Shown here: positions 7,671 through 26,910 of the stretch, in pieces
How the letters are laid out: every line of letters begins with the position of its first letter
Numbering within the stretch: position 1 is the stretch's first letter
Source of the DNA: Planctomycetota bacterium
GTDB taxonomy: Bacteria > Planctomycetota > Planctomycetia > Planctomycetales > Planctomycetaceae
Direction: 5' to 3'
Assembly (NCBI GenBank): GCA_021781115.1
Contig: JAJXXL010000371.1
Location: forward strand, 1-33,391
Length of the DNA stretch: 33,391 nucleotides
Position numbers and translations under genes: made by a program
Notes under the pieces: generated by a model
Seen by the model: the letters and a program-made list of their open reading frames with translations, nothing else
What the model was told of the DNA's origin: nothing
Database searches by the model: none

Positions 7671-9023
7671 GTGTCATTCGGCGATGGCCCGTCGCCGGTT
7701 GTGAACGAGGTAACGAGTTTGGCTGAGCATGTCGACAATGTGGCGTGCACCGTTTGCGGGTGCGTGTGCGACGACCTGCGGCTGACGATCGAGGCGGGAA
7801 AAATCACCCGTGCCGAACGGGCCTGCGGGTTGGCCGAACCATGGTTCCTCGAACAGGGTAGCCAGCAACCGCCCGTCGCTGAAATCGAGGGTCAACCTGC
7901 CGAACTCGCTGTCGCGCTCGACCGCGCCGCCGAAATCCTGCACTCCGCACGGTCTCCGTTGATTTACGGGCTGTCGCGCAGCAGTACGCCCGGTCAGCGG
8001 GCGGCGATTGCACTGGCCGATCGGCTGGGCGCCACGATCGACACCACGGCGTCGCTGTGCCACGCGCATTCGGTCATGGCCGTACAAAATGTCGGCGAAC
8101 AGACCTGCTCGCTGGGCGAAGTGAAGAATCGAGCCGACCTCGTGATTTATTGGGGGTCGAACCCGGCGGTCAGCCACCCCCGGCACACCGAGCGGTACTC
8201 GGCCGATCCTGTGGGCGAGTTTTTGCCCGGCGGGCGGCGTGATCGCACACTGGTCGTTGCCAATCTGGCGCCGAATGAAACCAGCGCCGTCGCAGATTTT
8301 TTTCTGCCAATTGAACCCGGGCGTGACTTTGAGGCGCTGTGGACCTTGCGAAGCCTGGTGCGGGGCATCGGTCCGGCGCGGGGTTCGGTGATCGGCGCAC
8401 CGCTGGAGAAACTCGAAAGCCTTGCCGGAATGATGAAATCCTGTCGGTTCGGCATCGTGTTTTTCGGACTGGGCTTGAGCCTGACCGATGGCGGACGCCA
8501 AAACGTCGAGGCGCTGTTGCGTCTGGTGCGCGACCTGAACCAGTACACGCGATTTTACGCCCGCCGGATGCGTGTGCAGGGCGATGTCACCGGGGCCGAC
8601 CTGGTTCTGGCCTGGCAAACCGGGTACCCCTTCAGCGTGAACCTGGCACGGGGCTACCCGCGTTACAACCCCGGCGAGTTTTCGGCACAGTCGCTGCTCG
8701 AGCGACATGAGGTCGACGCCTGCGTGCTGGTCGGCAGTGAAGGCGTCGACCGCTTTTCACCCGCCGCACGACATTGGCTCGAACAAATCCCTACGATTGC
8801 GCTCGATCACCCAACGGTCCCTTCGCGCGTTCCACCAACAGTGCGATTCACAACGGCGGTGTATGGCATTCATCGCGCTGGCACGGCCTATCGGATGGAT
8901 GAAGTTCCGATCCCGCTGCGAGGCTTTCTTGCCAGTTCGTACCCCGATGATGAGGAAGTGCTTGACGGCTTGGGCCGCCGGGTGGCAATCGCCGCTGCGG
9001 GGCACGGCAGTTCAGGGTCGTGA
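7671..9023 (+). CDS. fhcB: Formyltransferase/hydrolase complex subunit B (FwdB/FmdB homologue)
   Basis: The 450-residue protein is homologous along its length to archaeal formylmethanofuran dehydrogenase subunit B. N-terminal cysteines C26, C29, C33 and C52 (CTVCGCVCDD, RACGLAE) match the [4Fe-4S] site. ASLCHAHSVMAVQNVG places C130 where FwdB has its tungsten/molybdenum ligand, and GEVKNRADLVIYWGSNP and HPRHTERYS follow. In bacteria the Fhc complex works in the tetrahydromethanopterin C1 pathway, releasing formate from formyl-H4MPT via a methanofuran-type carrier; FhcB is the presumed non-redox relic subunit. No fhcA, fhcC or fhcD is present here. The start is uncertain: GTG at 7671 is used, but GTG at 7701 or TTG at 7716 (GAGG upstream) would also precede the first cysteine motif. 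Confidence 0.9.
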   Translation: MSFGDGPSPVVNEVTSLAEHVDNVACTVCGCVCDDLRLTIEAGKITRAERACGLAEPWFLEQGSQQPPVAEIEGQPAELAVALDRAAEILHSARSPLIYGLSRSSTPGQRAAIALADRLGATIDTTASLCHAHSVMAVQNVGEQTCSLGEVKNRADLVIYWGSNPAVSHPRHTERYSADPVGEFLPGGRRDRTLVVANLAPNETSAVADFFLPIEPGRDFEALWTLRSLVRGIGPARGSVIGAPLEKLESLAGMMKSCRFGIVFFGLGLSLTDGGRQNVEALLRLVRDLNQYTRFYARRMRVQGDVTGADLVLAWQTGYPFSVNLARGYPRYNPGEFSAQSLLERHEVDACVLVGSEGVDRFSPAARHWLEQIPTIALDHPTVPSRVPPTVRFTTAVYGIHRAGTAYRMDEVPIPLRGFLASSYPDDEEVLDGLGRRVAIAAAGHGSSGS

Positions 9024-9271: not shown

Positions 9272-12200
9272 GTGTTGTTGAATCATTGGTTGCGAAAACT
9301 GCGGCTGGTTGGACCGCATCAAAGCCTGCTCAATCGTCGGCGGCGCTGGCGCCCTGCAGGCTGTGAAATGCTCGAACCCCGGCTGGTGCTGAGCGGCGGG
9401 CCGGTGCTGGTGAACAACACGACCGTTTCGGTTCCGCTGGGCGGCAGCACGACGATCACGCCAACCGAATTGCTGGCGAATGGTGGCACATCGACTCCAG
9501 CGACAGTTGTATTCACGCTGACAGCCGTTCCGCAAATCGGCAGCCTTGATTTGAGCGGCAACCCGCTGGTCGTGGGCGGCACGTTCAGCGAGCAGGATAT
9601 TGGCAACGGGCTGGTGACATACGTTCAAAACCCTGCAGATTCGAGTGCGCCGAGCGATAGCTTCGGGTATACAATTGCAAATGGGGGCACATCGAGTTCG
9701 AATTATCTGGCGTCGGTGAGCTTAAGCGGGGGCGAAAGCAACGGCCAATCGTATAACCCCAGCATATCAGCCGACGGCCGGTACGTAGGGTTCGCTTCAT
9801 TCGCCAGCAATCTTGTGGCAAACGACACAAATACCGCCACCGATGGTTTTATCTATGACACGACGGCGCAAACCACGACGCGGGTAACGACCGATTCCAT
9901 CAACAGCCAATTGCCGCTGGGCGGCGGAAATGTGAACGAGCAAAATTCTGTCGTCGTTTCGGGCAACGGCCAGGATGTGGTGTTCTCAACGCTGTCGTCC
10001 GGATTGCTTCCTTCAGGAACGATCAACGAAGCCAACGTGTTTGAAAAGAACCTGGCAACGAGGAAGGTATCGCTGGTTTCTGCCGTCAACGGCACCACGA
10101 CGGTCGGCAACAACTTTGCCGATATTGCCGAAAGCGGAATGTCGACATCGACCGATGGTCGCTATGTCGTTTTCACTTCGATTGCGACGAACCTGGTATC
10201 GACACCCGTGAGCGGCAACAAGCCCGAAGTCTATCTTCGCGATATGCAGACGAATACGACAACGCTTGTCTCAGAAACCTCGGCCGGCGTTGCGGCAAAC
10301 GACCAGTCCGATGAAAACGCGATTTCACCCGATGGGCGCTACATTGCCTTCCGGTCGGATGCCAGCAACCTCGCGCCGGGCACACCCGCCGGCGTATATG
10401 AAATCTACGTCCACGACATGGTGACGGGAACGACGACGCTGGTGTCCACCGATTCGAGCGGAAATGCGTCAAACGCCGATTCGTCGAATCCTTCGATCAC
10501 GCTCAACGGCGAATTGATTGCATTCGATTCGGCTGCCAATAATCTGGTCAGCGGCGACACAAATAAAGCGACGGACGTGTTCGTCCACAATACGGCGACG
10601 GGGCAGACCGTTCGCGTTTCGGTTGATTCCAGCGGCAATCAGGATTCGCAATCGCTCGGTTCCGGCCAACCCTCGATCACACCCGACGGGCGCTACGTCG
10701 CTTTCGCATCGCACGACCACGGGTTGTCTTCGGTCAGCGGGTTTTACGGCGGCATTTTTGTGCACGACATGACAACCGGCCAAACCACACTGATCTCGGT
10801 CACGTCGGCAGGACTGACCGGCAATGGCATCGAATACTACGACCCGGTGATCTCAGCCGACGGTCAAACTGTTGCATACAGCGAACTCAGCGCAACGAAC
10901 CTGGTGTCAAATTCAACGGGCGCATTTCCCGATATCATCGTGGCCCGCCAGACGCCAATTACGATCTCGGGCACGACGAACATTACGATCGACCACCCGC
11001 CCACGATTACCGCGATAGCGAATCAGTTTGTCGCCACAAGCACTCCCACGGCCGCGGTGGCATTTACCGTTGGCGATTCGCAAACGGCTGCCAGCCAGCT
11101 CAAGTTGAGCGCAGCGACTTCGAACTCGTTCGTGGTTCCCTTGTCAAACATCGTGTTCGGCGGCAACGGGGCCAACCGCACAGTGACTGTCTCGCCCGCC
11201 CTGGGCCAGGTCGGCTTTAGCCAGATTACAGTCACGGTGACCGATGGAGTGGGTTTGTCGACCAGCACCACATTTACGGTGTCGGTCAACACGCCGATCT
11301 TGTCGCCCATCGTAAACCAGTCGACGCAAGAGGCGACGGTCACGAGCGCGATCCCATTCACCGCGTCGGGCGACCAGATCACACCGGTCGATCAATTGAC
11401 TTACGCCGCCACTTCGTCGAATACAACGCTGGTTCCCAATGCCAACATCGTGCTGGGCGGAACCGGGGCGAACCGCACTGTCACGGTCACACCCGCGGCG
11501 TTTCAAACGGGCAACACGGCAATCATTATTACTGCCGCCGATGGCAATGGCACGACGGCCGTCAGCGTGTTTCTGCTGACCGTCGTGCCCGGCCCGCCGC
11601 CCACGATTACGCCCGTCAGCGACCAGTCGATTACGTCTGGGCAAACCCTGCCCCCCCTGGCATTCACGATTAACGACCTCCTGACGCCCGTTGCACAACT
11701 GACTCTCAGCGGCACTTCGTCAAACCAGGCGCTGATCTCAAACGGAGGGATCGTCTTCGGGGGCAGCGGCGCAAACCGCACGGTGACACTCTCGCCCACG
11801 CCGGGCCAGATTGGCACGTCGAAAATTACGCTGACGGTGACGGACCTCGACGGGCGCAAAAGTTCGACGTCCTTCAGTTTCAGCGTGCTGACCGCCAGCG
11901 ATGTGCCCACAATTACGCCTATCCCCAACCAGACGATTCCTGAAAACTCACTGACCGGCGGCCTCAGTTTCCAGATCGCCGATCCCGACAACCCGCTGGC
12001 GCCACTGACGGTCAGCGCCTCTTCTTCGAACCAGACCCTTGTGCCCAACGCCAACCTGACGATCGCGGCCGGTGCCGGTGGATATCGCCAGTTGTCGGTT
12101 GCCGCCACGAACGGTCAGACCGGCAATGCCACGATCACGGTCAATGTTTCGAATGGCGTGCATACCGCCTCGACGACGTTCGTGTTGACTGTCACGCCCC

Positions 12201-13606
12201 AGGGCCCGCCGGGGCCGGGGCCTGCGCCAACCGCCCCGATTCCCTCGATTTCGTCGGTGGCAAATCAAATCACATTGGTGAACACACCTGTCGGCCCGCT
12301 CGCATTCAGCGTGGCCGACCCGCTTGACCCCACCGCAACGCTTTCGGTTCTGGCGTCGTCGTCGAACCCCGGCCTCGTCGCCACGGGCGGGCTGCTGCTC
12401 GGCGGCTCAGCCAGCAACCCCACGCTGACTGTCGTTCCCGTGGCCAACCGCACCGGAACGGCAACGATTACGATGCAGGTGGCTTCGTCCTCAGGAACCA
12501 GCAGCACGACCAGTTTCCAACTTACGGTCCAACCGGCCGGGCTCGCCGCGCCGCTGCCTCCGCCCGCCACGTCGACATTCGCCGGGCAGGTGAACGCATC
12601 GCTGACGTTTGTCGCGCCGGCGATCACGTTGACCAACCCCGTCGGCCCGTTGACCTATTCGGCCATGAATTTGCCGTCTGGCGCCGCGTTCAACCCGGCG
12701 ACAAATCAATTTTCGTGGACGCCCGCTGCCAACCAGGGGCCGGCCACCTATACGGTCGTGTTCACGGCTACCGACGGCGTGCATTCGTCGAGCGAGCTGG
12801 TAACGCTCGATGTTTTCAACCCGACGCCGATGTATGTGGCATTCAATCCTGTCGCCAATGTCCATGTCTTTACGACATCGGCGTGGGAATTCCAGCAGAT
12901 TGTTCAAAACGGCCTGCAAGATCAGTCGTCCGGCCAGACGGGGTTTGCGGTCGATCAGGGGCCGGGGGCCGGTGCCGTGCCGCTGCACCGGCTGTATGAC
13001 CCGAACAACGGACTGCATTACTATACGACGAGTGATGGCGAACGGGATTCGTTGGTTAAGCAGGGCTGGAATTTTGAGGCCGACGAAGGTTATGTGTACA
13101 CCACGCAGGTTCCAGGGACTTCCCCAATTTTCCGCCTGTACAATACGCAAAACGGAGACCATTTCTACACAGCCAGCGCAACGCAGGAAGCGTCGATTCT
13201 CAGTCAGTCTCCCGGAGTGTGGCAGGTCACGACAAACCTCGGGTTCGGGTTTGCTACAACGGCGCAAGGGGCCATTTCGCTGCCGAGCACGCCTGCGCCG
13301 GAACTCTCATCATCGTCGATCACCGCCGCCGCGATTTCGGCAGCAGAACTTTCGGTCGGGCCGGGTGTCGCCGCAACGTCGGTCAATGCGGGCGCGACTC
13401 TGGCCGGCGTTCCTGTGGGCGGCATCGGCCCGAGTGGCACGAACTCTGCCAGTGGTGCGCCCACGCCGCCGGCCGCAAGCGAACCATCGGCGACCAGCGC
13501 GACTGCCGGCGCGCCACAACCTGCCCGAAGCCCAGCGGCTCTCGACACCTGGTGGAGTGCGGTGGCGGGCCAAATCGCAGCCGGGCTGGATGGCTTTTCG
13601 GCTTGA
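9272..13606 (+). CDS. Giant LEPR-motif surface protein with PD40 propeller, Ig-like repeats and DUF5648 module
   Basis: A 1444-residue exported protein starting at GTG 9272. Residues 1-43 are basic (NRRRRWRP) and end in LEPRLVLSG (34-42), the LEPR-XLL motif of planctomycete surface proteins. Residues about 45-145 resemble a CSPG/cadherin-like unit. Seven PD40/TolB-type blades follow (about 150-560), each with a version of SISADGRYVGFAS and a TTTLVS strand. Five Ig/cadherin-like repeats of about 100 residues (starting near 577, 676, 778, 880, 992) share PTIT...NQ, a Q-L-x-x-S-A-x-SSN block and GANRTVTVSP. A putative-Ig domain (about 1104-1182) and a DUF5648 module (1187-1328, RLYDPNNGLHYYT, RLYNTQNGDHFYT) come next, then a Ser/Ala/Pro/Thr-rich tail ending in ALDTWW. 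No catalytic site is evident; an adhesive or matrix role is inferred. Its C-terminal half is paralogous to the next gene. Confidence 0.92.
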   Translation: MLLNHWLRKLRLVGPHQSLLNRRRRWRPAGCEMLEPRLVLSGGPVLVNNTTVSVPLGGSTTITPTELLANGGTSTPATVVFTLTAVPQIGSLDLSGNPLVVGGTFSEQDIGNGLVTYVQNPADSSAPSDSFGYTIANGGTSSSNYLASVSLSGGESNGQSYNPSISADGRYVGFASFASNLVANDTNTATDGFIYDTTAQTTTRVTTDSINSQLPLGGGNVNEQNSVVVSGNGQDVVFSTLSSGLLPSGTINEANVFEKNLATRKVSLVSAVNGTTTVGNNFADIAESGMSTSTDGRYVVFTSIATNLVSTPVSGNKPEVYLRDMQTNTTTLVSETSAGVAANDQSDENAISPDGRYIAFRSDASNLAPGTPAGVYEIYVHDMVTGTTTLVSTDSSGNASNADSSNPSITLNGELIAFDSAANNLVSGDTNKATDVFVHNTATGQTVRVSVDSSGNQDSQSLGSGQPSITPDGRYVAFASHDHGLSSVSGFYGGIFVHDMTTGQTTLISVTSAGLTGNGIEYYDPVISADGQTVAYSELSATNLVSNSTGAFPDIIVARQTPITISGTTNITIDHPPTITAIANQFVATSTPTAAVAFTVGDSQTAASQLKLSAATSNSFVVPLSNIVFGGNGANRTVTVSPALGQVGFSQITVTVTDGVGLSTSTTFTVSVNTPILSPIVNQSTQEATVTSAIPFTASGDQITPVDQLTYAATSSNTTLVPNANIVLGGTGANRTVTVTPAAFQTGNTAIIITAADGNGTTAVSVFLLTVVPGPPPTITPVSDQSITSGQTLPPLAFTINDLLTPVAQLTLSGTSSNQALISNGGIVFGGSGANRTVTLSPTPGQIGTSKITLTVTDLDGRKSSTSFSFSVLTASDVPTITPIPNQTIPENSLTGGLSFQIADPDNPLAPLTVSASSSNQTLVPNANLTIAAGAGGYRQLSVAATNGQTGNATITVNVSNGVHTASTTFVLTVTPQGPPGPGPAPTAPIPSISSVANQITLVNTPVGPLAFSVADPLDPTATLSVLASSSNPGLVATGGLLLGGSASNPTLTVVPVANRTGTATITMQVASSSGTSSTTSFQLTVQPAGLAAPLPPPATSTFAGQVNASLTFVAPAITLTNPVGPLTYSAMNLPSGAAFNPATNQFSWTPAANQGPATYTVVFTATDGVHSSSELVTLDVFNPTPMYVAFNPVANVHVFTTSAWEFQQIVQNGLQDQSSGQTGFAVDQGPGAGAVPLHRLYDPNNGLHYYTTSDGERDSLVKQGWNFEADEGYVYTTQVPGTSPIFRLYNTQNGDHFYTASATQEASILSQSPGVWQVTTNLGFGFATTAQGAISLPSTPAPELSSSSITAAAISAAELSVGPGVAATSVNAGATLAGVPVGGIGPSGTNSASGAPTPPAASEPSATSATAGAPQPARSPAALDTWWSAVAGQIAAGLDGFSA
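12830..13255 (+). repeat. DUF5648 module, copy 1
   Basis: This block encodes residues 1187-1328 of the first giant protein and is clearly homologous to 17247-17672 in the second. Both contain the same ordered motifs: FTTS, GFAVDQG, PLHRLYDPNNGLHYYT, DEGY, YTTQVPG, IFRLYN, QNGDH, YTAS and a final VWQVTT-LGFGFA. Confidence 0.85.
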
Positions 13607-13901
13607 ACCGACGTGGATGACAAGGTTGCGGTCGTATTGAAACGTTCGATTGTAGGGGAATGTGGCCAAAAACAGACATCTGTCGGCCCGAGCGGGATTG
13701 CGACGGCTCTGGCGGTATTGCTAGGATCAATGAACCGGTCATCCGCATGGTGTTGGCTACGCGGCTTTTTCCGCCAGGAACCGCGTGACGCGCGGGCGGG
13801 TCGTGCCGGTTCTTTCGCCACCGAACTGCTGCGGGCCGCAGTTCGGCGGTCAGTTTGTGTTCGTTCGTCGAGTTATCCGTTCCAGAGGGGACATTGTTCT
13901 C
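13607..13901 (+). other. Spacer between the two giant paralogues, with a weak candidate promoter
   Basis: In these 295 nt, TTGCGA (13698-13703) and TAGGAT (13722-13727) are 18 nt apart and each match four of six consensus bases, a possible separate promoter for the S53 gene with a leader of about 170 nt. The S53 reading frame is open upstream to 13785, but translation is assigned to the ATG at 13902. I see no clear terminator for the first gene. Confidence 0.25.
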
Positions 13902-16900
13902 ATGCTGCTCACATTCTGGTTTCGGCGTGTGCGGGACCGTCAAAGGGGTCAGCAGATTCATCGGGTGACCCGGGCAGAAGGCCGCCGCGTCCGGTACAGC
14001 CGGCTGGCTGGTGTTGCGGGCGAAATCCTCGAAGTGCGATGCATGCTGAGTGGCACGCCGGCGGACCCTGGAGTGTCGCATACGACATACATCGTCGCGC
14101 ACCCGTATGGAGGAGCGGCACCGTATCAGTTTTCGACGCCAACGGGTGGATTCACACCCCAGCAAATCGCGCAGGCGTACGGCATCAATCAGATTCAATT
14201 CGGTGCGATTGCCGGCACGGGGGCGGGCCAGACGATTGCGATTGTCGATGCGTATGACAACCCAAAATTCGTGAACAGCACTGCCGCGAATTTTTTAACG
14301 AGCGACCTGCATCAGTTCGACGTGGCGTTTGGACTGCCCGACCCGCCCAGCTTCAAGAAAGTCGATGAATTTGGCGGACAGAATTATCCACCCGTCGATC
14401 CGACCGGCGGCTGGGAGGGCGAGGAGTCATTGGATGTCGAGTGGGCACACGCGATTGCCCCAATGGCAAATATCATTCTTGTTGAAACGATTGATCCACT
14501 GAACTTGTTTTCCGGAGTCAGGACCGCAAGGAATGTTCCCGGTGTGTCCGTTATCTCCATGAGCTTCGGACAGCCAGGCTTCTTGGGCGAAACCGCCCTC
14601 GACAGCGTCTTCACGACTCCGGCGAAGCACACACCGATTACGTTTCTCGCGTCGTCAGGCGACACGGGCGCACCGGGGGGGTACCCCGCCGAGTCGCCCA
14701 ACGTTGTCGCGGTCGGCGGAACGTCGCTTTACACCGACGCGACGGGTAACTATCAGAATGAAACCGGTTGGGGCAACATAAGTGGGGCAAGCGGCGGCGG
14801 CATCAGTCAGTACGAAACCAAGCCGATTTATCAGATCCCACTGAAGTTTCCCAGCGGCGGTTACCGCACGATTCCGGATGTCTCGTTCGTCGCCGATCCT
14901 GAAACCGGTGTAGATATTTACGACAGCTACAACAATGGGGCAGCGACGCCGTGGGGAGTCATTGGCGGAACCAGCCTTGCCAGTCCCTCCTGGGCCGGCC
15001 TCATCGCCATCGCCGACCAGGGGCGGGTTCTCGCCGGCGAAGCGACCCTCGATGGCGCCAAAGATACGCTGCCGATTCTGTACAAGCTGCCGGCCAGCGA
15101 TTTTCACGACATCACCACGGGCTACAACGGGTTTGGCTTCTTTCCAGGCTATAACGCCGGTCCCGGTTACGACCTCGTGACCGGCATTGGCACCCCCGTT
15201 GCGAACAAGCTGGTGCCCGACCTGGTCACCACGCCCGCGCAGGATGTGCCCCCCGTGTTGACGATGTCAACAACCACGCTGAACTATGTCATCGACGCGC
15301 CCGCCACAGTCATTGACCCCGCGGCCACGATTACCGACACGCTGCATCTGAACTACAATACGGGCACGCTGACGGTCAATTTCTCAGTGAACGGCCTGGC
15401 CGAAGACCGCTTGGCCATTCAGAACCAGGGCAACGCCGCGGGGCAAATTGGCATTTCCGCCAACGTCGTTTCGTATGGTGGTCTCCAGATCGGCACCTTC
15501 ATCGGTGGCACAAGCGGCCAAAAGCCGCTGACGATTGCCTTCAATGCCAATGCCACGCCCGCGGCTGCCCAGGCGCTGCTGGACGACATCACTTATCAGG
15601 ACGTTTCGCAAAACCCGCTGACGTTGCAGCGCACGATTCAATTCGTGCTCAGCGACGGCCAGGGCGGCTCAAGCACACCGACGACTGTTCAGGTCAATTA
15701 CGTTCCGCCACTGTCCATCAGCCCGATTCCTGACGATACCGTCGCTGAGGGCACATTGCCGCAGCCGATGTCATTTACCGTTTCCGACTTGCTGAACCCG
15801 GTCGTGAACGCTGTCGTTTCGGCGGCATCGTCGAATGGCATGGTTGTTACCAACCCGAACCTGATCATTGCGGGGGCGGGCGCAGCGCGCACGCTGGCCA
15901 TTATTCCCAATGCGTTTGGTTCGGGGACCGCAGTCATTACGCTTTCAATTACCGACCCCCCCACCGGCATTTCCTTCAGCCAGGCGTTCAAATTCATCGT
16001 TACACCCCTGGGGCCGCCCACGATTTCCACGACGACGCCCAGCCCGATTGTCCCCCTCACCGACGATCAGCAGATATTGCCCGTGCCGTTCAGCATTGGC
16101 GACCCGCTGACTCCGGTAAACCAGTTAACTGTGTCGGCCACGTCATCGAACCTGGCCCTGTTGCCGAATGCCAACCTCAGCATTCTGGGCAGCGGCGCCA
16201 ATCAGGTTCTGGCGATCAATACCCTGAACGAAATCGACGGCGTTTCGGTCGTGACGCTGACGGTGACTGATCTTGATGGCCGCACGGCGACATTGCCCAT
16301 AACGGTTGACATCAACAGCGACAACGACGCACCCACGATTTCCACCATTCCCAATCAGACCAGCGCCGAGAATTCTTCGACCGGCGGACTCGCGCTGTAC
16401 GTCGCCGACGCCGACACGCCTGCGAACCAGCTCTCGCTTTCGGCGACATCGTCGAATCAGGCCCTGCTGACGAATGCCAATTTCACATTCTTTGGCAACG
16501 GAAATTACCGCCAGATTTCGGCGTTTCCGACCCCCAATGTGACGGGCTCCACGACGATTACCGTAACCGTCGCCGACAACACGGGGGGCACCGCGCAATC
16601 GCAATTTCAACTGACCGTCATTCCGTCAAACATTCAAACCACGGTTCCCAATGTGCCCCCGTCCGGGGCGCCCACGATTTCATCGGTCGCCACACAATCG
16701 ACGGTCGAAAACACGCCCACCAGTCCGATTCCGTTCACAATTGGCGACCTGAGCAACCCCAGCGCGGTTTTGACGGTGACGGCCGGTTCTTCGAACCCCG
16801 CACTGATTCCCAACGCCAATCTGTTGCTGGCAGGCGGCGGGGCCAATCGTACGATCAGTCTTGTTCCCGCGGCGAATCAGACCGGCAGTGCCACGATTAC

Positions 16901-18038
16901 CCTGGGCGTTTATGCTTCTGACGGAACCCAGACCACGACTAGCTTCGTGGTCACCGTCACGGCCTCCAGCGGTGGCCTGGGAAACAGTAACGACAACGTC
17001 CTCGACTTTGTCAACCAGCCGCTCACGCTCATTGCGCCCACGATCAATTTGACGGGCACGGGAACCGTCGTGTACGCCGCGGCAAATTTGCCGGCAGGCG
17101 CCGCATTCGACCCCTCGACCCGCACCCTCACCTGGACGCCCGCGCCGTCGCAAGGCCCCAGCACGAACAATGTCATTGTTACGGCGACGAACGGTACGCA
17201 GTCGGCCAGTGAAACGCTGTCAATTACGGTGTACAACCCGACACGCATGTACCAGGCGTATAACGCAAGCGCCAACCTCAATTTTTTCACGACATCCTAC
17301 GCAGAATTTCGGCAGGACGTACAGATCGGCCTGCAGGACAAATCGACCGGGCAAGCTGGTTTCGCCGTCGATCAGGGTTCAGCTCTGGGCGCTTTGCCGC
17401 TGCATCGGCTGTACGACCCCAACAACGGCTTGCACTACTACACTGCGAGCAATGCTGAGGAAACCTCGCTCGTGGCCAGTGGCTGGGTGTATGAACGCGA
17501 CGAAGGCTACCTGTACACGACACAGGTGCCCGGTTCGACCGAGATCTTTCGCCTGTATAATTCGCAAAATGGCGACCATATTTACACCGCCAGTGCCGCC
17601 CAAAGCGACGCCATCGTGGCCCAGAACCCGGCGGTCTGGCAGGTAACGACCAGCCTGGGCTTTGGCTTTGCCGTGTCGAACCAGGGGACGTTTGTCATTA
17701 CGAATTCGAGTTCGTCGTCAAGCTCGTCGTCGTCGATTTCATCGGCGGCCATGTCGAGCCGTGAACTGGCCGCCGCGCCCGCGTCGTCTGGGGCAAGTTA
17801 TGCCGCCGCACCGGCGGTTGTGTCGCCCTTGGGCGGAATCGGCTCTGGCAGCACTGGGGCAACCACGGCCTCCAGCGAATCTTCACCCGGCGTCGCCGGC
17901 GCACCAGTTGGAATCGCCGGTTCGACGACCGGCAGAACGCCACCGGCTGCCGACTCGGGCGACGCGGCGCTGGATTCGTACTGGAACACGCTGGGGCAAC
18001 AACTGTTGTCGAGCGGCGCTGCGGTCTTTGCCGACTGA
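13902..18038 (+). CDS. Giant LEPR-motif surface protein with S53 (sedolisin/kumamolisin) serine-carboxyl peptidase domain
   Basis: A 1378-residue protein; AGAGGGG 11 nt before the ATG at 13902, and the match of MLLTFWFRR to the paralogue's MLLNHWLRK, fix the start. LEVRCMLSG (43-51) is a variant LEPR-XLL motif. Residues about 65-445 form an S53 peptidase with a complete catalytic set: E174 and D178 (WEGEESLDVEWAHA), oxyanion D254 (SSGDTGAPGG) and nucleophile S358 (GGTSLASPSW), plus the C-terminal calcium-site segment (FHDITTGYNG, GPGYDLVTGIG). No propeptide of usual size precedes it. A cadherin-like region (about 450-605) and four Ig-like repeats (near 605, 706, 812, 925) follow, then a putative-Ig domain, a DUF5648 module (1116-1257), a Ser10 tract and a tail ending in ALDSYW. 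S53 enzymes cleave proteins, usually at acid pH. It is probably exported and surface-attached. Confidence 0.93.
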   Translation: MLLTFWFRRVRDRQRGQQIHRVTRAEGRRVRYSRLAGVAGEILEVRCMLSGTPADPGVSHTTYIVAHPYGGAAPYQFSTPTGGFTPQQIAQAYGINQIQFGAIAGTGAGQTIAIVDAYDNPKFVNSTAANFLTSDLHQFDVAFGLPDPPSFKKVDEFGGQNYPPVDPTGGWEGEESLDVEWAHAIAPMANIILVETIDPLNLFSGVRTARNVPGVSVISMSFGQPGFLGETALDSVFTTPAKHTPITFLASSGDTGAPGGYPAESPNVVAVGGTSLYTDATGNYQNETGWGNISGASGGGISQYETKPIYQIPLKFPSGGYRTIPDVSFVADPETGVDIYDSYNNGAATPWGVIGGTSLASPSWAGLIAIADQGRVLAGEATLDGAKDTLPILYKLPASDFHDITTGYNGFGFFPGYNAGPGYDLVTGIGTPVANKLVPDLVTTPAQDVPPVLTMSTTTLNYVIDAPATVIDPAATITDTLHLNYNTGTLTVNFSVNGLAEDRLAIQNQGNAAGQIGISANVVSYGGLQIGTFIGGTSGQKPLTIAFNANATPAAAQALLDDITYQDVSQNPLTLQRTIQFVLSDGQGGSSTPTTVQVNYVPPLSISPIPDDTVAEGTLPQPMSFTVSDLLNPVVNAVVSAASSNGMVVTNPNLIIAGAGAARTLAIIPNAFGSGTAVITLSITDPPTGISFSQAFKFIVTPLGPPTISTTTPSPIVPLTDDQQILPVPFSIGDPLTPVNQLTVSATSSNLALLPNANLSILGSGANQVLAINTLNEIDGVSVVTLTVTDLDGRTATLPITVDINSDNDAPTISTIPNQTSAENSSTGGLALYVADADTPANQLSLSATSSNQALLTNANFTFFGNGNYRQISAFPTPNVTGSTTITVTVADNTGGTAQSQFQLTVIPSNIQTTVPNVPPSGAPTISSVATQSTVENTPTSPIPFTIGDLSNPSAVLTVTAGSSNPALIPNANLLLAGGGANRTISLVPAANQTGSATITLGVYASDGTQTTTSFVVTVTASSGGLGNSNDNVLDFVNQPLTLIAPTINLTGTGTVVYAAANLPAGAAFDPSTRTLTWTPAPSQGPSTNNVIVTATNGTQSASETLSITVYNPTRMYQAYNASANLNFFTTSYAEFRQDVQIGLQDKSTGQAGFAVDQGSALGALPLHRLYDPNNGLHYYTASNAEETSLVASGWVYERDEGYLYTTQVPGSTEIFRLYNSQNGDHIYTASAAQSDAIVAQNPAVWQVTTSLGFGFAVSNQGTFVITNSSSSSSSSSSISSAAMSSRELAAAPASSGASYAAAPAVVSPLGGIGSGSTGATTASSESSPGVAGAPVGIAGSTTGRTPPAADSGDAALDSYWNTLGQQLLSSGAAVFAD
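17247..17672 (+). repeat. DUF5648 module, copy 2
   Basis: Encodes residues 1116-1257 of the S53 protein and is the counterpart of 12830-13255. The two copies differ at many third codon positions but keep the protein sequence well, which points to an old duplication under selection. Confidence 0.85.
17706..17735 (+). repeat. Ser10 codon tract (mostly TCG)
   Basis: Ten successive serine codons, seven of them TCG, form a low-complexity linker right after the DUF5648 module. The paralogue has only a short serine run at the same place, so the tract may vary in length by slippage. Confidence 0.7.
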
Positions 18039-20952: not shown

Positions 20953-21732
20953 CTACGATGAGAACTCGGGCCGCCGCTGGTGGAGCTGATCTTTGAGTCG
21001 GCTGACGATGCTCGAATGCATCTGGCTGACGCGCGATTCCGACAGCCCCAGCGTGTTGCCGATTTCCTTCATCGTCAGCTCTTCGTAATAGTACAGAATG
21101 ATGATCAACCGCTCGTTCCGGTTCAGCCCCTTGGTGACGAGCTTCATCAGGTCACGCTTCTGAATGCCGTTCGTGGGGTCGATGCCCTTGTTGTCCTCGA
21201 GCACGTCGATTTCGCGCACATCCTTATAGCTGTCGGTTTCGTACCATTTCTTATTCAGGCTCACCAGGCTCACGGCGCTGGCTTCGGCCTTGAGCCGTTC
21301 GAATTCCTCGGTCGAAATCTGCATCTTTGCGGCGATTTCGGCGTCTGAGGGCGGGCGCCCGGTTTCTGCCTCGGCGGCCTTGCGGGCGTGTTCGACCTTG
21401 CTGGCCTTGCTGCGAACCAGTCGCGGCACCCAGTCCATCGTGCGCAGCTCGTCCAGCATGGCCCCGCGAATTCGCGGCACACAGTAGGTTTCGAACTTCA
21501 CGCCCCGATTCAGGTCAAACGCCTCGATCGCGTCCATCAGCCCGAACACTCCTGCCGATATCAGATCGTTCAGATCGACTCCATCAGGCAGTTTCGACCA
21601 CACCCGTTCGGCATTGTAGCGTACGAGCGGCAGATATTTTTCGATCAGCGCGTTTCGCAGGTCTTTGTTGCCCTGATCCTGTTTATATTCCTGCCAGACT
21701 TCCGAAATATCGCGTTCGACCTTCGTGACCAT
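20953..21732 (-). CDS. fliA: RNA polymerase sigma factor of the FliA/WhiG (sigma-28) family
   Basis: A 259-residue sigma factor. Region 2 runs through YLPLVRYNAERVW, DLISAGVFGLMDAIEAFDLNRG and FETYCVPRIRGAMLDELR, characteristic of sigma-28. Region 3 includes ETGRPPSDAEIAAKM, and region 4 is LNRNERLIIILYYYEELTMKEIG with a helix-turn-helix in LGLSESRVSQMHSS. It directs RNA polymerase to late flagellar promoters. Two starts are possible; the ATG at 21732 is preferred because GGAGGG at 21737-21742 lies four nt upstream, and this site is destroyed as a signal if translation starts at 21744. It is the last gene of the flagellar operon and meets yhdJ tail to tail, 21 nt apart. An anti-sigma factor FlgM was not seen. 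Confidence 0.95.
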   Translation of the reverse strand: MVTKVERDISEVWQEYKQDQGNKDLRNALIEKYLPLVRYNAERVWSKLPDGVDLNDLISAGVFGLMDAIEAFDLNRGVKFETYCVPRIRGAMLDELRTMDWVPRLVRSKASKVEHARKAAEAETGRPPSDAEIAAKMQISTEEFERLKAEASAVSLVSLNKKWYETDSYKDVREIDVLEDNKGIDPTNGIQKRDLMKLVTKGLNRNERLIIILYYYEELTMKEIGNTLGLSESRVSQMHSSIVSRLKDQLHQRRPEFSS

Positions 21733-21736
21733 ACAA

Positions 21737-21742
21737 CCCTCC
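21737..21742 (-). promoter_or_regulatory. Ribosome binding site deciding the fliA start
   Basis: The minus strand reads GGAGGG here, four nt before the ATG at 21732 and inside the alternative ORF that begins at 21744. Confidence 0.5.
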
Positions 21743-21771
21743 ATGGTGCGGCAAGAGCAAGTCGTGACTTA

Positions 21772-22011
21772 TTAGCGGTGAGGCGCCGCGGTTGCGGCGG
21801 ACGAAACGCCGCCTGACGGCACAGTTTGAACATTTTCTTCGACGACGCGGCGGGCCAGTTCTCCGCAAAGGCAACCGAGCAGGTAAAACAGGCCGAGGGC
21901 CGCCAGTGCCCGCGTGAGCGCCGGTTCAAACGTCGACCGGGAAACCAGGCCTTCGAAAGCGGCCGTGGCAAAGGCGATCAGGGCAAGTCGAACTCCAAAT
22001 TCGTGAGCCAC
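21772..22011 (-). CDS. Small predicted membrane protein within the flagellar operon
   Basis: A 79-residue product beginning with GTG at 22011, with GAGG seven nt upstream. Two hydrophobic stretches (LALIAFATAAFEGLV at about 9-23 and ALAALGLFYLLGCLCG at about 35-50) predict a two-helix hairpin in the cytoplasmic membrane. After that comes the charged segment ELARRVVEENVQ and a polar Ala/Thr tail. I do not recognise a named family. It sits between flhG (182 nt upstream) and fliA (39 nt downstream) on the same strand, so it is probably cotranscribed with the flagellar genes; a role in flagellar placement or export is possible but unsupported by sequence motifs. Confidence 0.72.
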   Translation of the reverse strand: MAHEFGVRLALIAFATAAFEGLVSRSTFEPALTRALAALGLFYLLGCLCGELARRVVEENVQTVPSGGVSSAATAAPHR

Positions 22012-22025
22012 AGTTGCGCCTCAAC

Positions 22026-22049
22026 GGGGGGCTGCCGCGGCGGCCCCCC
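22026..22049 (-). other. Very stable GC hairpin in the leader of the small flagellar-operon gene
   Basis: Six G residues (22026-22031) pair with a C-run (22044-22049), and four further pairs (one G-U) close a CGCG tetraloop. On the minus strand this structure lies a few bases before the GAGG ribosome site (22019-22022) of the gene starting at 22011. It may tune translation, mark an RNA processing site or partly terminate transcription after flhG. Confidence 0.5.
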
Positions 22050-22193
22050 CCACGGCAGGCGGGGTTCAGTGCGGTTTGCGGTTCCCGTTGTTTAAGTATC
22101 GGCGTCCAATGGCGAATAATTGAGGAAATCTTGTCGAGACGGAAAAGTCGATCGGGACATCGCGCGGCTGGGCTGAGCAACGCCGGGCCGCGG

Positions 22194-23081
22194 TCACGCA
22201 GCCCGTTCGGGGTGATGTCGAAACCGCGAAAAAAATGGGCTGTGCACCGTTTGGCGGTGCGACAGGTTGATCACCCTCCGGGCCAATTGCTCGACGGCCC
22301 GTGCTGCGGGCGCATCGGGCGACTGCAATACGAACGGCGTGCGCTGATTTACGGCCTGAACCACCGCCGGGTCGCGGGGGACAAACCCCGCCGAACCAAC
22401 GCTGGCATACAGAAACGTGCGAGCGGTGTGCTGCACGCGAGCAATGATTTCGCGGGCCTGCTCGGGCGAGTCGGCCTGATTGACAAGCAGTTGTGGCTCT
22501 GGCAAACCGGCACAGGCTGATAGTGATTTGATCGTGGCGTAGGCGTCGGCGATAGAGGTAGGCTCGGGCGTGGTAACGATCAAAATCATGTCGGCGGCCG
22601 ACACGAACTGCCGCACCGAACGGTGAATGCCGGTGCCTGTGTCAATGATCAAAAACTCATGCGATCTCTCGAGTTCTTCGAGCTGGGCCAGGATTTCGGT
22701 CTGGGCCGCACGCGGGCAATCGGCCACATCCTGCAAGCCACTGGCACCAGGAATCACCTGGATTCCGGCAGGACCTTGCAGCAGAATCTCGCGGAGTGTG
22801 CGGGCCCCGCTGATCACATGCGACAGGTTCCAATACCCGTTCAGGCCACACAGCAGGTCGACATTGCCCAACCCCAGGTTTGCGTCGAGCAGGCATACCG
22901 AATGCCCGACTTTGCCCAAGGCAATCGCCAGGTTCAGCGCGAGGTTGCTCTTGCCCACGCCGCCCTTGCCACTGGTGATCGTCACCGTGTGCGCCCGGGG
23001 TGCCGCGGTCGTTGAATCGGCCGGCGCCGCTTCAGAGCGCTGTTCCATCAGTCCGCGCAAAATCTGTGCTTGATCGTGCAT
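22194..23081 (-). CDS. flhG: FlhG, MinD-like ATPase controlling flagellar number
   Basis: The chosen start gives 295 residues beginning MHDQAQILRGL; D3-Q4-A5 and L8-R9 match the DQAxxLR activator motif by which FlhG stimulates the FlhF GTPase. The deviant Walker A SGKGGVGKSN (38-47) with its signature lysine, LLDANLGLGNVDLL, and FLIIDTGTGIH establish a MinD/ParA-type ATPase. ATP-dependent dimers bind the membrane and regulate FlhF and the number of flagella. An in-frame ATG at 23114 would add 11 residues before the activator motif and is less likely. The gene lies 186 nt downstream of flhF on the same strand. No MinD-like C-terminal amphipathic helix is obvious; the tail is basic and aromatic (SPFFSRFRHH). 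Confidence 0.94.
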   Translation of the reverse strand: MHDQAQILRGLMEQRSEAAPADSTTAAPRAHTVTITSGKGGVGKSNLALNLAIALGKVGHSVCLLDANLGLGNVDLLCGLNGYWNLSHVISGARTLREILLQGPAGIQVIPGASGLQDVADCPRAAQTEILAQLEELERSHEFLIIDTGTGIHRSVRQFVSAADMILIVTTPEPTSIADAYATIKSLSACAGLPEPQLLVNQADSPEQAREIIARVQHTARTFLYASVGSAGFVPRDPAVVQAVNQRTPFVLQSPDAPAARAVEQLARRVINLSHRQTVHSPFFSRFRHHPERAA

Positions 23082-23267
23082 CGCTTCACCACGAATTGAA
23101 GGAATTGAGTCCATTGGTCAGGCTGCGCGTCCTCTCCAGAAAGCTCCAGTGAAATCCGGGCGCCGCGGGCCGCACTCCTGGTTCACCGTTCGAAACCGAT
23201 TCGCTGCGGGTCGGGCCATGTCGGCGGCATGACGGCCGGCTCTGTTGCAACGTCCTCTTAGAGCTGA

Positions 23268-24647
23268 CTAGGCGGCGCGCAGCGCGATTGCCGGCGTCTT
23301 TGGCGCGTACAGTCGCTCGTCGCCCATGACCAGTCGGGCAATTCGCCCCGGCTGGGCGTGTTCGATGTCATCGGGAACATCCTGCCCGGTCGTCAGGTAA
23401 CTGATAGGTAAAGGCACGCGGCGGGCAACCGACATGATCGCCCCCATGCCAACCGCCTCGTCGAGCTTTGTCAAAATCATGGCTGTCGCGCCGGCGGCCG
23501 CGAATTGGCTGGCGGTCGCTTCCAGGCTGCGCGGGCTGGCGACGAGGCTGAGCACGAGGTGCACTTCGTCCACTCGGGCCTCGGCCAGCAGGCTTTTGAG
23601 TTCCTGAATTTTCAATTCGTCGCGCGGGCTGCGCCCGGCAGTGTCGATCAGCACGAGATCCAGCCCCGACAGTTCATCGAGCGCCCGCCGCATTTCCCGC
23701 GGGCCGGTAACGACTTTCATCGGCAGGTCGATAATTTCAGCGTAGGTACGCAATTGCTCGACGGCAGCAATGCGATACGTATCGACGGTGACCAGCCCCA
23801 TTTTGATTCCGTCTCGCAGCCGGAAATTCGCGGCCAGCTTGGCGATTGTCGTTGTTTTGCCGACGCCCGTCGGTCCGACCAGTGCCACGACTTTACGCCG
23901 CCCCGGTTGGGCCGAGATCGGCGGCGCACAGCGCAGTTCGCCCTCGACCATCAAGCTCAACCGCTGGCGGACCACGGCCGGCAGGCCTAACCGCTCGGAG
24001 GGGCAGTCCTGCTTGAGGCGGCAGATCCAGTCGCGCGCGAGGTCTTCGTCGACTTCGGCGTCGATCAGTTCGGTGTACAACTGAAACAGTTCGCTGGGCA
24101 CGTCCTCGCCACCCGGGCCACCGCCCCGACTGAGCTTTTCGACCATTTTCTGAATCGACGTCAACTGCCGGGCGATTGCCGCCTGCTGCTCGACGTGAAC
24201 TGTCGGCGAGGCAACCGCCCGCGCGAACGATTCGAGCCCCAGATCACGAGCGTGCTGCGAAGCGGGAGCAGATCGCTGGCCGGTCAGCAGCGGTGGGGGC
24301 GGTGCCAACTGCTGGTCGGCAGCATGGCGGGCAACGCCGCCCACCCGCCCATTTCCGCCCGTCATGCGCTGGGGGCGGGCGGGCGGTTGCACATTCGTCG
24401 CTGTCGGCGGCGTCTGCACGACAATTCGCGGCGACCGCACATTGACGCCCGTTCCCGCGGTGATCTCCACTCGGTCTTTCGACCGCCCGAACTTCCAGAA
24501 TCGGGGGGCAGGCAGTTCGCGCGTGTGTAAAATCACGGCCTCAGCGCCCATTTCGCGCCGTACGACGTCAAGGGCTTCCTGCATGCTCGCCGCCTTGAAT
24601 GTTCGAACTTCAGTCTGACTCATTATTCGTGGCACTTTCTTGGTCAT
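23268..24647 (-). CDS. flhF: FlhF, SRP-type GTPase for flagellar placement
   Basis: A 459-residue protein with the three FlhF regions. The basic N-terminal B domain (VRTFKAASMQEALDVVRREMGAEAVILHTREL) is followed by a proline-rich linker of about 80 residues, an N domain and a signal-recognition-particle-type G domain. G motifs visible are GPTGVGKTTT (258-267), VTVDTYRIAAVEQLRTYAEI, DLVLIDTAGRS and TKLDEAVGMG. FlhF dimerises on GTP and recruits early flagellar parts to the membrane site. The ATG at 24647 is used, though MSQTEVRTF at 24623 is an equally plausible start because neither has a good ribosome site. It lies between flhA (136 nt upstream) and flhG, the standard order. Confidence 0.95.
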   Translation of the reverse strand: MTKKVPRIMSQTEVRTFKAASMQEALDVVRREMGAEAVILHTRELPAPRFWKFGRSKDRVEITAGTGVNVRSPRIVVQTPPTATNVQPPARPQRMTGGNGRVGGVARHAADQQLAPPPPLLTGQRSAPASQHARDLGLESFARAVASPTVHVEQQAAIARQLTSIQKMVEKLSRGGGPGGEDVPSELFQLYTELIDAEVDEDLARDWICRLKQDCPSERLGLPAVVRQRLSLMVEGELRCAPPISAQPGRRKVVALVGPTGVGKTTTIAKLAANFRLRDGIKMGLVTVDTYRIAAVEQLRTYAEIIDLPMKVVTGPREMRRALDELSGLDLVLIDTAGRSPRDELKIQELKSLLAEARVDEVHLVLSLVASPRSLEATASQFAAAGATAMILTKLDEAVGMGAIMSVARRVPLPISYLTTGQDVPDDIEHAQPGRIARLVMGDERLYAPKTPAIALRAA

Positions 24648-24783
24648 CGAAAAACACGAGAAAGGAGGGGGACAAACGGTTTCAATCGCCCGGGCACGAA
24701 CGGCGTCGTTCGCGTCCGATAGAATGACATTGACATTTCTTGTTCATGCCCTGTTTTTTTACTGGGGTATTGGGAGCGGGGCA

Positions 24784-26910
24784 TCAGCGTGCTCCGGCCA
24801 TCGCCGCGCGGTTTTTGTTCAGGGCTTCGACGCCGACCTGGCCCGCCGATTCGACCTGCGTGTCGCGGGTCACCTCGCTCAGGCTCAGTACGGCCAGATT
24901 CGGTATCGAAGCAAACGTGATTTGCTTGAGCGCCGCCCGGATCTGCGGGCTGCACAACACCACCGGCGGGCGACCCGCAGCGGTCAGCCGCTCAAGCTGG
25001 GCCGCAATGCCGCGCGTCACTGCCTCGGTGACCTGCGGCGACAATTTGATGTTCATGCCGCGCTCGTTGAATTCGATGCCCGCCGACAGCATGTCTTCGA
25101 CCTGCGGATCGAAGGTCACGACGTGCAGCACCCGGTCCTGATCGCGGTATTGCTGGCAAATCGACCGGCTCAGGGCATGCCGCACGTATTCCGTGAGAAT
25201 GCCCAGATCCTTGGTCCGGTCGGCATAGTCGCCGAGCGTTTCCAGGATCGTTTCGAGGTTTCTGATCGACACCTGTTCGCGGAGCAGTTTGCACAGCACC
25301 TGGTGCACCTGCGACGATTTCAACACGTCGGGAATGAGCTCGTCAACAATTTTGGGCGAATTCTGCTTCAAATTGTCGAGTAACTGGTGCACCTGCTGCC
25401 GCGACAATAATTCGTCGCTGTACTTCCGCACGACTTCACTCAGATGCGTGACCACGACCGCCGATGGCTCGACGACGTTGTAGCCCATGAGCTCAGCGCG
25501 TTCGCGCTGGGCGGCGTCGATCCAGACGGCGGGTCGTCCGAATGCCGGCTCGATCGCCGCCACGCCGGAAATGCGGCCGTTCGTGGCCCCCGTGTCAATC
25601 GCCAGCAATCCTTCCGGATGAATTTCGCCCCAGGCCACCGGAACGTCCTGGATCTTGATCTGATATTGCCGTTGATCGAGCCGAATATTGTCGCGAATCC
25701 GCACTTTAGGAAGAATGATTCCAATGTCCTGGGCGATTTTATGCCGCACCCGTGTGACGCGCTCGAGCAGGTCGCCCCCGACGGATGTATCGGCCAGGCG
25801 AATCAGCCCGAACCCGAGTTCGAGCGCCATGGGGTCGACCAGCAAGTTGTCTTCGGGTTTGGGCGCCGTCTTGTCCGGCGTGCTTTTAGCCGCCAGTTGC
25901 TGGCGTTCGGCCGCCTGTTGCTCTTTTTTGCCTCGCGACAGCATTACCGCGATCACGCACAATCCACCCCCCAGCAGCAACAGCGGCAGCTTGGGCAGGC
26001 CCGTGAACGACAGCGATGCCAGAAAGACCGCCGACACGACCATCGCTTCCGGGCGAATGAACATTTGCCCCACGATGTCGCCCGGCAGGTCGCTTTCGAC
26101 TGACGTGCGGGTCGTCAGCAGCCCGGCGGCGAGCGAAATCAGAAAAGCGGGCACCTGCGTGACCAGTCCGTCGCCAATCGTCAGTTTGGTGAATACCAGC
26201 GACGCCTCGCGCAAGGTCATGCCGTCTTCGACCATGCCAATGAAAATCCCGCCGGCAATGTTGATCAGCGTGATCACGATACTGGCAATCGCGTCGCCCC
26301 GCACGAACTTGCTGGCACCGTCCATGGAACCGTAAAAGTCAGCCTGCTGGGTCACCTCCTCGCGGCGTTGTTTGGCAACCGCCGCGTTGATGACTCCCGC
26401 GTTGAGGTCGGCGTCGATCGCCATTTGCTTGCCGGGCATGCCGTCGAGCGCAAACCGCGCCGCCACTTCGCCGATGCGCGTGGCGCCTTTGGTGATAACC
26501 AAAAACTGAATCGCGATCAGAATGATGAAAATGATCAGCCCCACCGCCACTTGCCCGCCAGCCACAAATTCGCCAAAGGCTTGGATCACCCCCCCGGCCG
26601 CACTGGTGCCATCTGCCGCGCCGCGCGTCAGAATTAGCCGGGTCGAGGCCACGTTCAACACCAGCCGTGCCAGCGTGGTGCCCAGCAGCAACGAGGGAAA
26701 CACGCTGAATTCCAAGGGCTTTCCGACGTAAATCGTGGTCAGCAAGATCACAACCGCGATCGTGATGTTTGCTGAAAGCAGCAGGTCGAGCACGATCGCC
26801 GGCAGCGGAACGACGATGACAAGCACCGACGCGGCGATCAATACGGGGAATATCAACCCCCGGCTTTGCGCCCAGAACCCGTGTCGAACGAACGACCCCG
26901 CAGGCGGCAT
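24784..26910 (-). CDS. flhA: FlhA, flagellar type III export gate protein
   Basis: A 708-residue protein of normal FlhA length. The N-terminal half contains about eight membrane helices, beginning with LIFPVLIAASVLVIVVPLPAIVL, and the family-defining FHIPEP segment (TRIGEVAARFALDGMPGKQMAIDADLNAG) on the cytoplasmic loop. After about residue 330 comes a Lys/Gln/Pro-rich linker (GKKEQQAAERQQLAAKSTPDK) and the cytoplasmic FlhA-C domain, including VTHLSEVVRKYSDELLSRQQ and the export-chaperone docking region. FlhA is the central channel and chaperone platform of the flagellar export apparatus. GGAGG five nt before the ATG gives a strong start. It is the first gene of this operon; the usual neighbour flhB is not in the window. 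Confidence 0.97.
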   Translation of the reverse strand: MPPAGSFVRHGFWAQSRGLIFPVLIAASVLVIVVPLPAIVLDLLLSANITIAVVILLTTIYVGKPLEFSVFPSLLLGTTLARLVLNVASTRLILTRGAADGTSAAGGVIQAFGEFVAGGQVAVGLIIFIILIAIQFLVITKGATRIGEVAARFALDGMPGKQMAIDADLNAGVINAAVAKQRREEVTQQADFYGSMDGASKFVRGDAIASIVITLINIAGGIFIGMVEDGMTLREASLVFTKLTIGDGLVTQVPAFLISLAAGLLTTRTSVESDLPGDIVGQMFIRPEAMVVSAVFLASLSFTGLPKLPLLLLGGGLCVIAVMLSRGKKEQQAAERQQLAAKSTPDKTAPKPEDNLLVDPMALELGFGLIRLADTSVGGDLLERVTRVRHKIAQDIGIILPKVRIRDNIRLDQRQYQIKIQDVPVAWGEIHPEGLLAIDTGATNGRISGVAAIEPAFGRPAVWIDAAQRERAELMGYNVVEPSAVVVTHLSEVVRKYSDELLSRQQVHQLLDNLKQNSPKIVDELIPDVLKSSQVHQVLCKLLREQVSIRNLETILETLGDYADRTKDLGILTEYVRHALSRSICQQYRDQDRVLHVVTFDPQVEDMLSAGIEFNERGMNIKLSPQVTEAVTRGIAAQLERLTAAGRPPVVLCSPQIRAALKQITFASIPNLAVLSLSEVTRDTQVESAGQVGVEALNKNRAAMAGAR

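Follow-up and report, generated by a model that had tools for sequence, protein, structure and literature searches.

We analysed a 33,391-nucleotide stretch from a Planctomycetota bacterium (assembly GCA_021781115.1, contig JAJXXL010000371.1, positions 1 to 33,391; hereafter the window), in which two giant genes, P0001 and P0002, lie side by side. An initial annotation of the window had described their products as adjacent exported paralogues of 1444 and 1378 residues that share a stalk and differ at the front, where one carries a seven-bladed PD40 propeller and the other an S53 protease. Both open reading frames (ORFs) were found, with the following features, including immunoglobulin (Ig)/cadherin-like repeats.

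9272..13606, plus strand: P0001, GTG start, 1444 residues; order LEPR leader, Cadherin_3, PD40 propeller, Ig repeats, He_PIG, DUF5648, LDxxW tail
9272..9397, plus strand: P0001 leader MLLNHWLRK...EMLEPRLVLSG, a planctomycete LEPR-type export leader by motif, with a weak match to NF012209
9401..9721, plus strand: P0001 Cadherin_3 (PF16184), residues 44-150, Pfam E 5e-13
9749..10951, plus strand: P0001 predicted PD40-type beta-propeller head of seven repeats, from Pfam, pattern search and reading by eye
10997..12544, plus strand: five Ig/cadherin-like repeats of P0001 by repeat profile, repeats 4 and 5 at 11903-12544
12563..12814, plus strand: P0001 He_PIG, residues 1098-1181, Pfam
12827..13225, plus strand: P0001 DUF5648, residues 1186-1318, Pfam E 4e-29, a predicted three-fold beta-beta-alpha-beta module
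13535..13603, plus strand: P0001 C-terminal tail AALDTWWSAVAGQIAAG..., a predicted helix behind a linker that is 77% A/S/T/P/G
13902..18038, plus strand: P0002, 1378 residues; order leader, S53, 150-residue module, Ig repeats, He_PIG, DUF5648, LDxxW tail
13902..14051, plus strand: P0002 leader MLLTFWFRR...EILEVRCMLSG, its motif LEVRCML being a LEPR variant
14148..15242, plus strand: P0002 S53 (sedolisin/kumamolisin) catalytic domain with Glu174, Asp178, Asp254 and Ser358, from phmmer and alignments
15246..15701, plus strand: P0002 beta module of about 150 residues, here named M160; the chimera junction lies 3′ of it
15705..16973, plus strand: four Ig/cadherin-like repeats of P0002 by repeat profile
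17019..17231, plus strand: P0002 He_PIG, residues 1040-1110, Pfam
17247..17624, plus strand: P0002 DUF5648, residues 1116-1241, Pfam E 2e-26
17964..18035, plus strand: P0002 C-terminal tail AALDSYWNTLGQQLLSSGAAVFAD

The start MLLxxWxRR had been annotated as common to the two proteins, but MxxxW...LExR leaders run through the whole DUF5648 family and the start was rejected as evidence specific to the pair. A LEPR motif had likewise been assigned to both. An LExR-LL-type motif does follow a basic stretch in each, reading LEPRLVL in P0001 but the variant LEVRCML in P0002. The NCBIfam model NF012209 scored 15.2 bits on the P0001 leader, under its cut-off of 17, and did not list P0002. The mechanical ORF of P0002 opens at a GTG at 13785; we favour the ATG at 13902 because GAGGGG precedes it and the M-L-x-x-W leader is family-wide.

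Both heads of the initial annotation, the predicted propeller and the protease, were recovered. In P0001, PD40 (PF07676) scored 47 bits, six propeller repeats were located by pattern search (at residues 168, 232, 295, 354, 412 and 472) and a seventh, DGQTVAYSE, was read by eye at about 530. A low-confidence model, with a predicted local distance difference test score (pLDDT) of 51, contains seven strand groups approximately 58 residues apart; it was too weak to serve as a fold-search query and was dropped from that use. A pattern scan of the named genomes for P0001 gave no match. The head of P0002 has no Pfam match, and Pfam also reports Big_9 in this protein. Against PDB chains, phmmer matched the P0002 head over the catalytic domain to kumamolisin-As (E 3e-28) and also to kumamolisin and sedolisin. 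The stretches bearing Glu174, Asp178 and Asp254, three of the four residues expected to form the tetrad with Ser358, are conserved in the aligned S53 set, and GGTS aligns with kumamolisin. These alignments confirm the front of P0002 as an S53-family catalytic domain with a predicted intact tetrad. No activation propeptide is present: only about 35 residues separate the LEPR-type motif from the catalytic domain, and the kumamolisin precursor 1t1e aligns with P0002 only from its residue 187 onward. Because the propeptide is missing, we regard P0002 as bearing an S53 catalytic domain, not as a complete classical S53 precursor. It therefore resembles sedolisin and kumamolisin in its Glu/Asp/Asp/Ser catalytic domain but differs in this missing propeptide and in its fusion to M160, Ig repeats and DUF5648. 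A propeptide-sized space is also absent from LEPR-type, short-leader S53 genes of four other genomes (G008, G025, G036 and G038).

Aligned domain by domain, the C-terminal halves of the two proteins match and the heads are unalignable. BLASTP returned 46% identity over 799 residues, or 48% over 663 residues with the low-complexity filter. The common part comprises the C-terminal ~570-670 residues at 46-48% identity and takes in the putative-Ig domain (He_PIG), DUF5648 and tail that had been annotated as shared, the first two reported by Pfam in both proteins. The DUF5648 domains (PF18885; cut-off 25 bits) scored 101.8 bits in P0001 and 93.1 bits in P0002, and are sisters both among the 26 domains of the window genome (99/91) and among 64 domains from three genomes (100/99). 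Moreover, a tree of the block from Ig repeat 4 through DUF5648 paired the two proteins at 100/100. These trees support common descent of the C-terminal half.

The resemblance could instead be convergent or background similarity between generic Ig repeats, a result that by the terms of the initial annotation would have overturned the duplication reading. Giant proteins in other planctomycetes contain like repeats, 38-46% identical, and there is no specific partner for the first repeats of either P0001 or P0002: in a tree of 51 repeats, which included outside proteins from genomes G311, G238, G037, G050 and G309, P0001 repeats 1 and 2 remained unpaired and the grouping of repeat 3 with P0002 repeats 1-2 (94/82) was not starred. 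However, the same tree joined P0001 repeats 4 and 5 with P0002 repeats 3 and 4, respectively (99/90 and 96/87, both starred), the DUF5648 sisterhood is independent of the repeats, and the block tree points the same way. The generic-repeat explanation was rejected for P0001 repeats 4-5, and for the common regions we consider it highly improbable. Descent-specific similarity starts at P0001 Ig repeat 3-4; the common display stalk proposed for the pair is thus retained for the C-terminal half, but does not extend to the leader or to the Ig stalk in full. The profile that delimits these Ig repeats matched no other protein in the fetched family loci of the window genome.

We identified a full-length counterpart of P0001 (L141:1295-6199:-) in genome G309, which belongs to another genus. 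It has the leader, Cadherin_3, PD40 propeller, Ig repeats, He_PIG, DUF5648 and an LDxxW-like tail, and its head is 40% identical to that of P0001. A constraint placing the DUF5648 domains of P0001 and L141 in one clade was rejected (approximately unbiased test, p-AU 0.009). Therefore, the ancestry of the tails of P0001 and P0002 is more recent than that of P0001 and L141, while the head is common to P0001 and L141. No S53 genes were found in G309 or G337; as a positive control, the full-length P0002 query detected them in G008, G025, G034, G036 and G038. Given a full-length P0001 counterpart in G309 and no S53 gene found there, P0002 is the chimeric member. Taken together, these comparisons show that in P0002 an S53 and M160 front has been joined to a C-terminal half of P0001 type.

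The initial annotation had proposed duplication followed by replacement of the head. Duplication with module exchange is upheld by the 100/99 and 100/100 trees and by the Ig repeats that pair in register, but on these data head replacement in a copied P0001 appears inseparable from capture of a 3′ half by an S53 gene. In the latter case an older S53-M160-DUF5648 gene beside P0001 would have received the Ig-He_PIG-DUF5648-tail half by gene conversion or unequal crossover, which alters only the route to the chimera, as there would have been no duplicated P0001 with a replaced head. Such a gene exists in the window genome: L039:2966-5533, which has no Ig stalk, resembles the P0002 head and M160 (42% over S53 and M160), and the S53 tree places P0002, L039:2966-5533 and a G025 gene together, weakly (84/93). 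Moreover, M160 immediately precedes DUF5648 in six other members, while in P0002 the Ig block intervenes, so that an S53-M160 gene with the 3′ half of P0001 captured onto it is an equally possible origin of P0002. On the other hand, 5′ replacement in a duplicated P0001 yields an identical end product, and the breakpoints are unreadable because a tail identity of ~48% is too old. We give 3′ capture slightly less than an even chance.

The initial annotation had also recommended a search for tandem LEPR/DUF5648 proteins and their heads. Across 170 genomes of the same family this yielded many heads and further tandems, and the P0001/P0002 pair is one case in a lineage-specific family built on a DUF5648 and LDxxW-tail chassis. 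DUF5648 matches numbered at least 22 in genome G000, 21 in G309 and 18 in G337; the remaining 167 genomes had 0-1 match each, four of them having one. For the window genome, 29 matches were reduced to 26 genes after an unrelated 222-residue ORF was dropped and double matches were merged; the three genera concerned, all within a single planctomycete family, have ~26, ~20 and ~17 genes of this kind. Propeller heads on this chassis are of the PD40, DUF5122 delta-60, BNR/Vps10 and NHL types, and protease heads of the S53, M10, M36 and reprolysin-like M12 types. Other heads are animal haem peroxidase (L114:4256-7405:- in G337, E 1.7e-155), CAP, cyclophilin, DUF5649, Calx-beta and CarboxypepD_reg. 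On contig C359 of G309 we also observed an M10-headed giant ORF (L136:1892-19999:-, a frame of 6588 residues) whose neighbour (L145:1845-7184:-) has a 64% identical C-terminus and a head cut by the contig end.

In most members DUF5648 is followed by a low-complexity A/S/T/P/G linker and, close to the C-terminus, by a predicted helix that bears a conserved LDxxW-type motif. Of the 57 complete members, 46 have the pattern D.[AFLVWYI][FWY] within their final 40 residues, compared with 7% of shuffled sequences. Tail specificity was judged by a profile search of the window genome, in which 17 of the best 19 matches were DUF5648 genes; the other two were a contig-cut fragment on C202 that opens at a DUF5648-like end and the second frame of a broken DUF5648 gene on C70. 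As far as this profile search can tell, the tail is confined to DUF5648 proteins in that genome, and it may be a signal. DUF5648 proteins of distant planctomycetes mostly end at the domain or shortly after it.

The family can be compared with several known systems. The LEPR leader motif RRLxxExLExRxLLA is attributed to Studholme et al. 2004, as cited in PMC8567305. Members resemble planctomycete LEPR-leader proteins in the N-terminal LExR-LL leader, large size, Ig/cadherin repeats and paralogous families, but add DUF5648 and the LDxxW tail, which are numerous only in three sampled genera. Elsewhere, DUF5648 forms the C-terminus of the largest group of BSAPs as a proposed glycan- or receptor-binding domain, with some BSAPs targeting O-antigen (PMC12853789); it is also an auxiliary domain of GH70 (PMC11299179) and a candidate binding domain in an endolysin (PMC13379245). 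The three beta-beta-alpha-beta units of our AlphaFold2 model (pLDDT ~96 over the domain) correspond to the fold already described in print, where glycan recognition is likewise proposed (PMC12853789, PMC11299179). The variable partner and, as in BSAPs and the endolysin, the C-terminal position are also alike, whereas the 17-26 genes per genome, many heads, linker and tail helix are not. Finally, as in PEP-CTERM and GlyGly-CTERM systems, many different proteins end in one short C-terminal motif behind a flexible linker. However, the LDxxW tail, AALDTWWSAVAGQIAAGLDGFSA in P0001, lacks a clear transmembrane stretch followed by a basic end, as in the PEP-CTERM type, and no NCBIfam C-terminal model matched it in the 50 members searched.

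A functional pairing of the two neighbours had also been suggested, and it draws on other tandems. On contig C297 of G309, a gene with a BNR/Vps10 head (L144:8098-14226:-) is directly followed on the same strand by an M36 fungalysin with propeptide motif and P-domain (L144:1793-8071:-), giving the same gene order as in the window, propeller first and protease second. Their common C-terminus (a different stalk, DUF5648 and tail) spans 774-868 residues at 45-48% identity. The C297 stalk has no BLAST match to the window stalk and consists of different repeats; we therefore regard this tandem as an independent event of like form. Moreover, on contig C413 of the window genome (L039:2966-7964), the S53-M160-DUF5648 gene, which has no tail, is followed by a delta-60 propeller DUF5648 gene, DUF5648 being the only part in common. 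Propeller and protease thus adjoin in 3/5 DUF5648 tandems from two genomes, compared with 0.36 expected (P ~0.002), a post hoc figure that is suggestive only, as head classes were fixed only once the pairs had been seen and the two S53 heads are perhaps related. These recurring tandems suggest that a P0001-type propeller and a P0002-type protease may act on the same material.

The pair could also be an ordinary product of paralogy and domain shuffling in planctomycete surface proteins, the two neighbours being functionally unlinked. Paralogization and domain shuffling have been described for Planctomycetes (PMC8567305), tandem LEPR genes are common in the window genome (C77, C80 and C376), and the G309 counterpart of P0001 is unpaired. 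Set against these are the tandem excess and the independently common stalks of two of the tandems. We judge ordinary shuffling to have a somewhat better than even chance; the functional pairing gains from the additional tandems but is unproven. Scans for promoters and terminators at P0001 and P0002 found no more than shuffles did, and the 295-base gap between the genes is uninformative on an operon.

As a whole, the findings are probably best explained by a secreted modular chassis with swappable heads that is targeted via DUF5648, P0002 being a chimera on this chassis. Each protein has an exchangeable head, beta-sandwich repeats as a spacer, DUF5648, a flexible A/S/T/P linker and a short, predicted LDxxW tail helix, and would be exported by its LEPR-type N-terminal leader, as the motif predicts. 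DUF5648, with the tail, would fix all members to one common glycan target, for which the cell's own surface, a matrix polysaccharide or an external polymer are candidates. A head swap would then direct a different activity to this target, with P0002 acting as a tethered protease and P0001 as a tethered binding propeller. This picture of exported proteins held on a common glycan draws on the glycan proposals for DUF5648 and on data from Tuwongella immobilis, in which 8/20 detected planctomycete-leader proteins occurred solely in the sodium dodecyl sulphate-soluble fraction, linked by the authors to the outer membrane and surface (PMC8567305).

Several points weigh against this explanation. Export and anchoring of P0001 and P0002 are predicted from motifs, and glycan binding, protease activity and joint action are predictions. 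DUF5648 has no significant structural match and no sequence match in the PDB, and glycan binding therefore rests on analogy. Moreover, the LDxxW tail may be passively inherited with DUF5648, and no S53 gene lies beside L141. We consider it unlikely that DUF5648 and LDxxW form a dedicated surface-delivery or docking cassette of this planctomycete lineage, a new type of C-terminal signal, and that this cassette repeatedly carries propeller and protease heads as tandem partners acting jointly on one substrate.

Elsewhere in the window, positions 20953-26910 carry flagellar-type genes on the minus strand, namely FHIPEP (FlhA-like), an SRP54-type GTPase (FlhF-like), a ParA-type ATPase and a sigma-70 family factor. 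A molybdopterin-oxidoreductase-like ORF with a weak Pfam match, possibly formylmethanofuran dehydrogenase subunit B, lies at 7671-9023.

In summary, P0001 and P0002 are a clear case from nature in which heads have been exchanged on a common, putatively secreted chassis, and another genus provides a second, independent one. The unit that they define, DUF5648 with its linker and LDxxW tail, is found with protease, peroxidase, cyclophilin and propeller heads alike. Should this unit be directed at a glycan or at the cell surface, it would explain the placement of the large and mostly unannotated exoproteome of these planctomycetes, and would provide a modular targeting domain.

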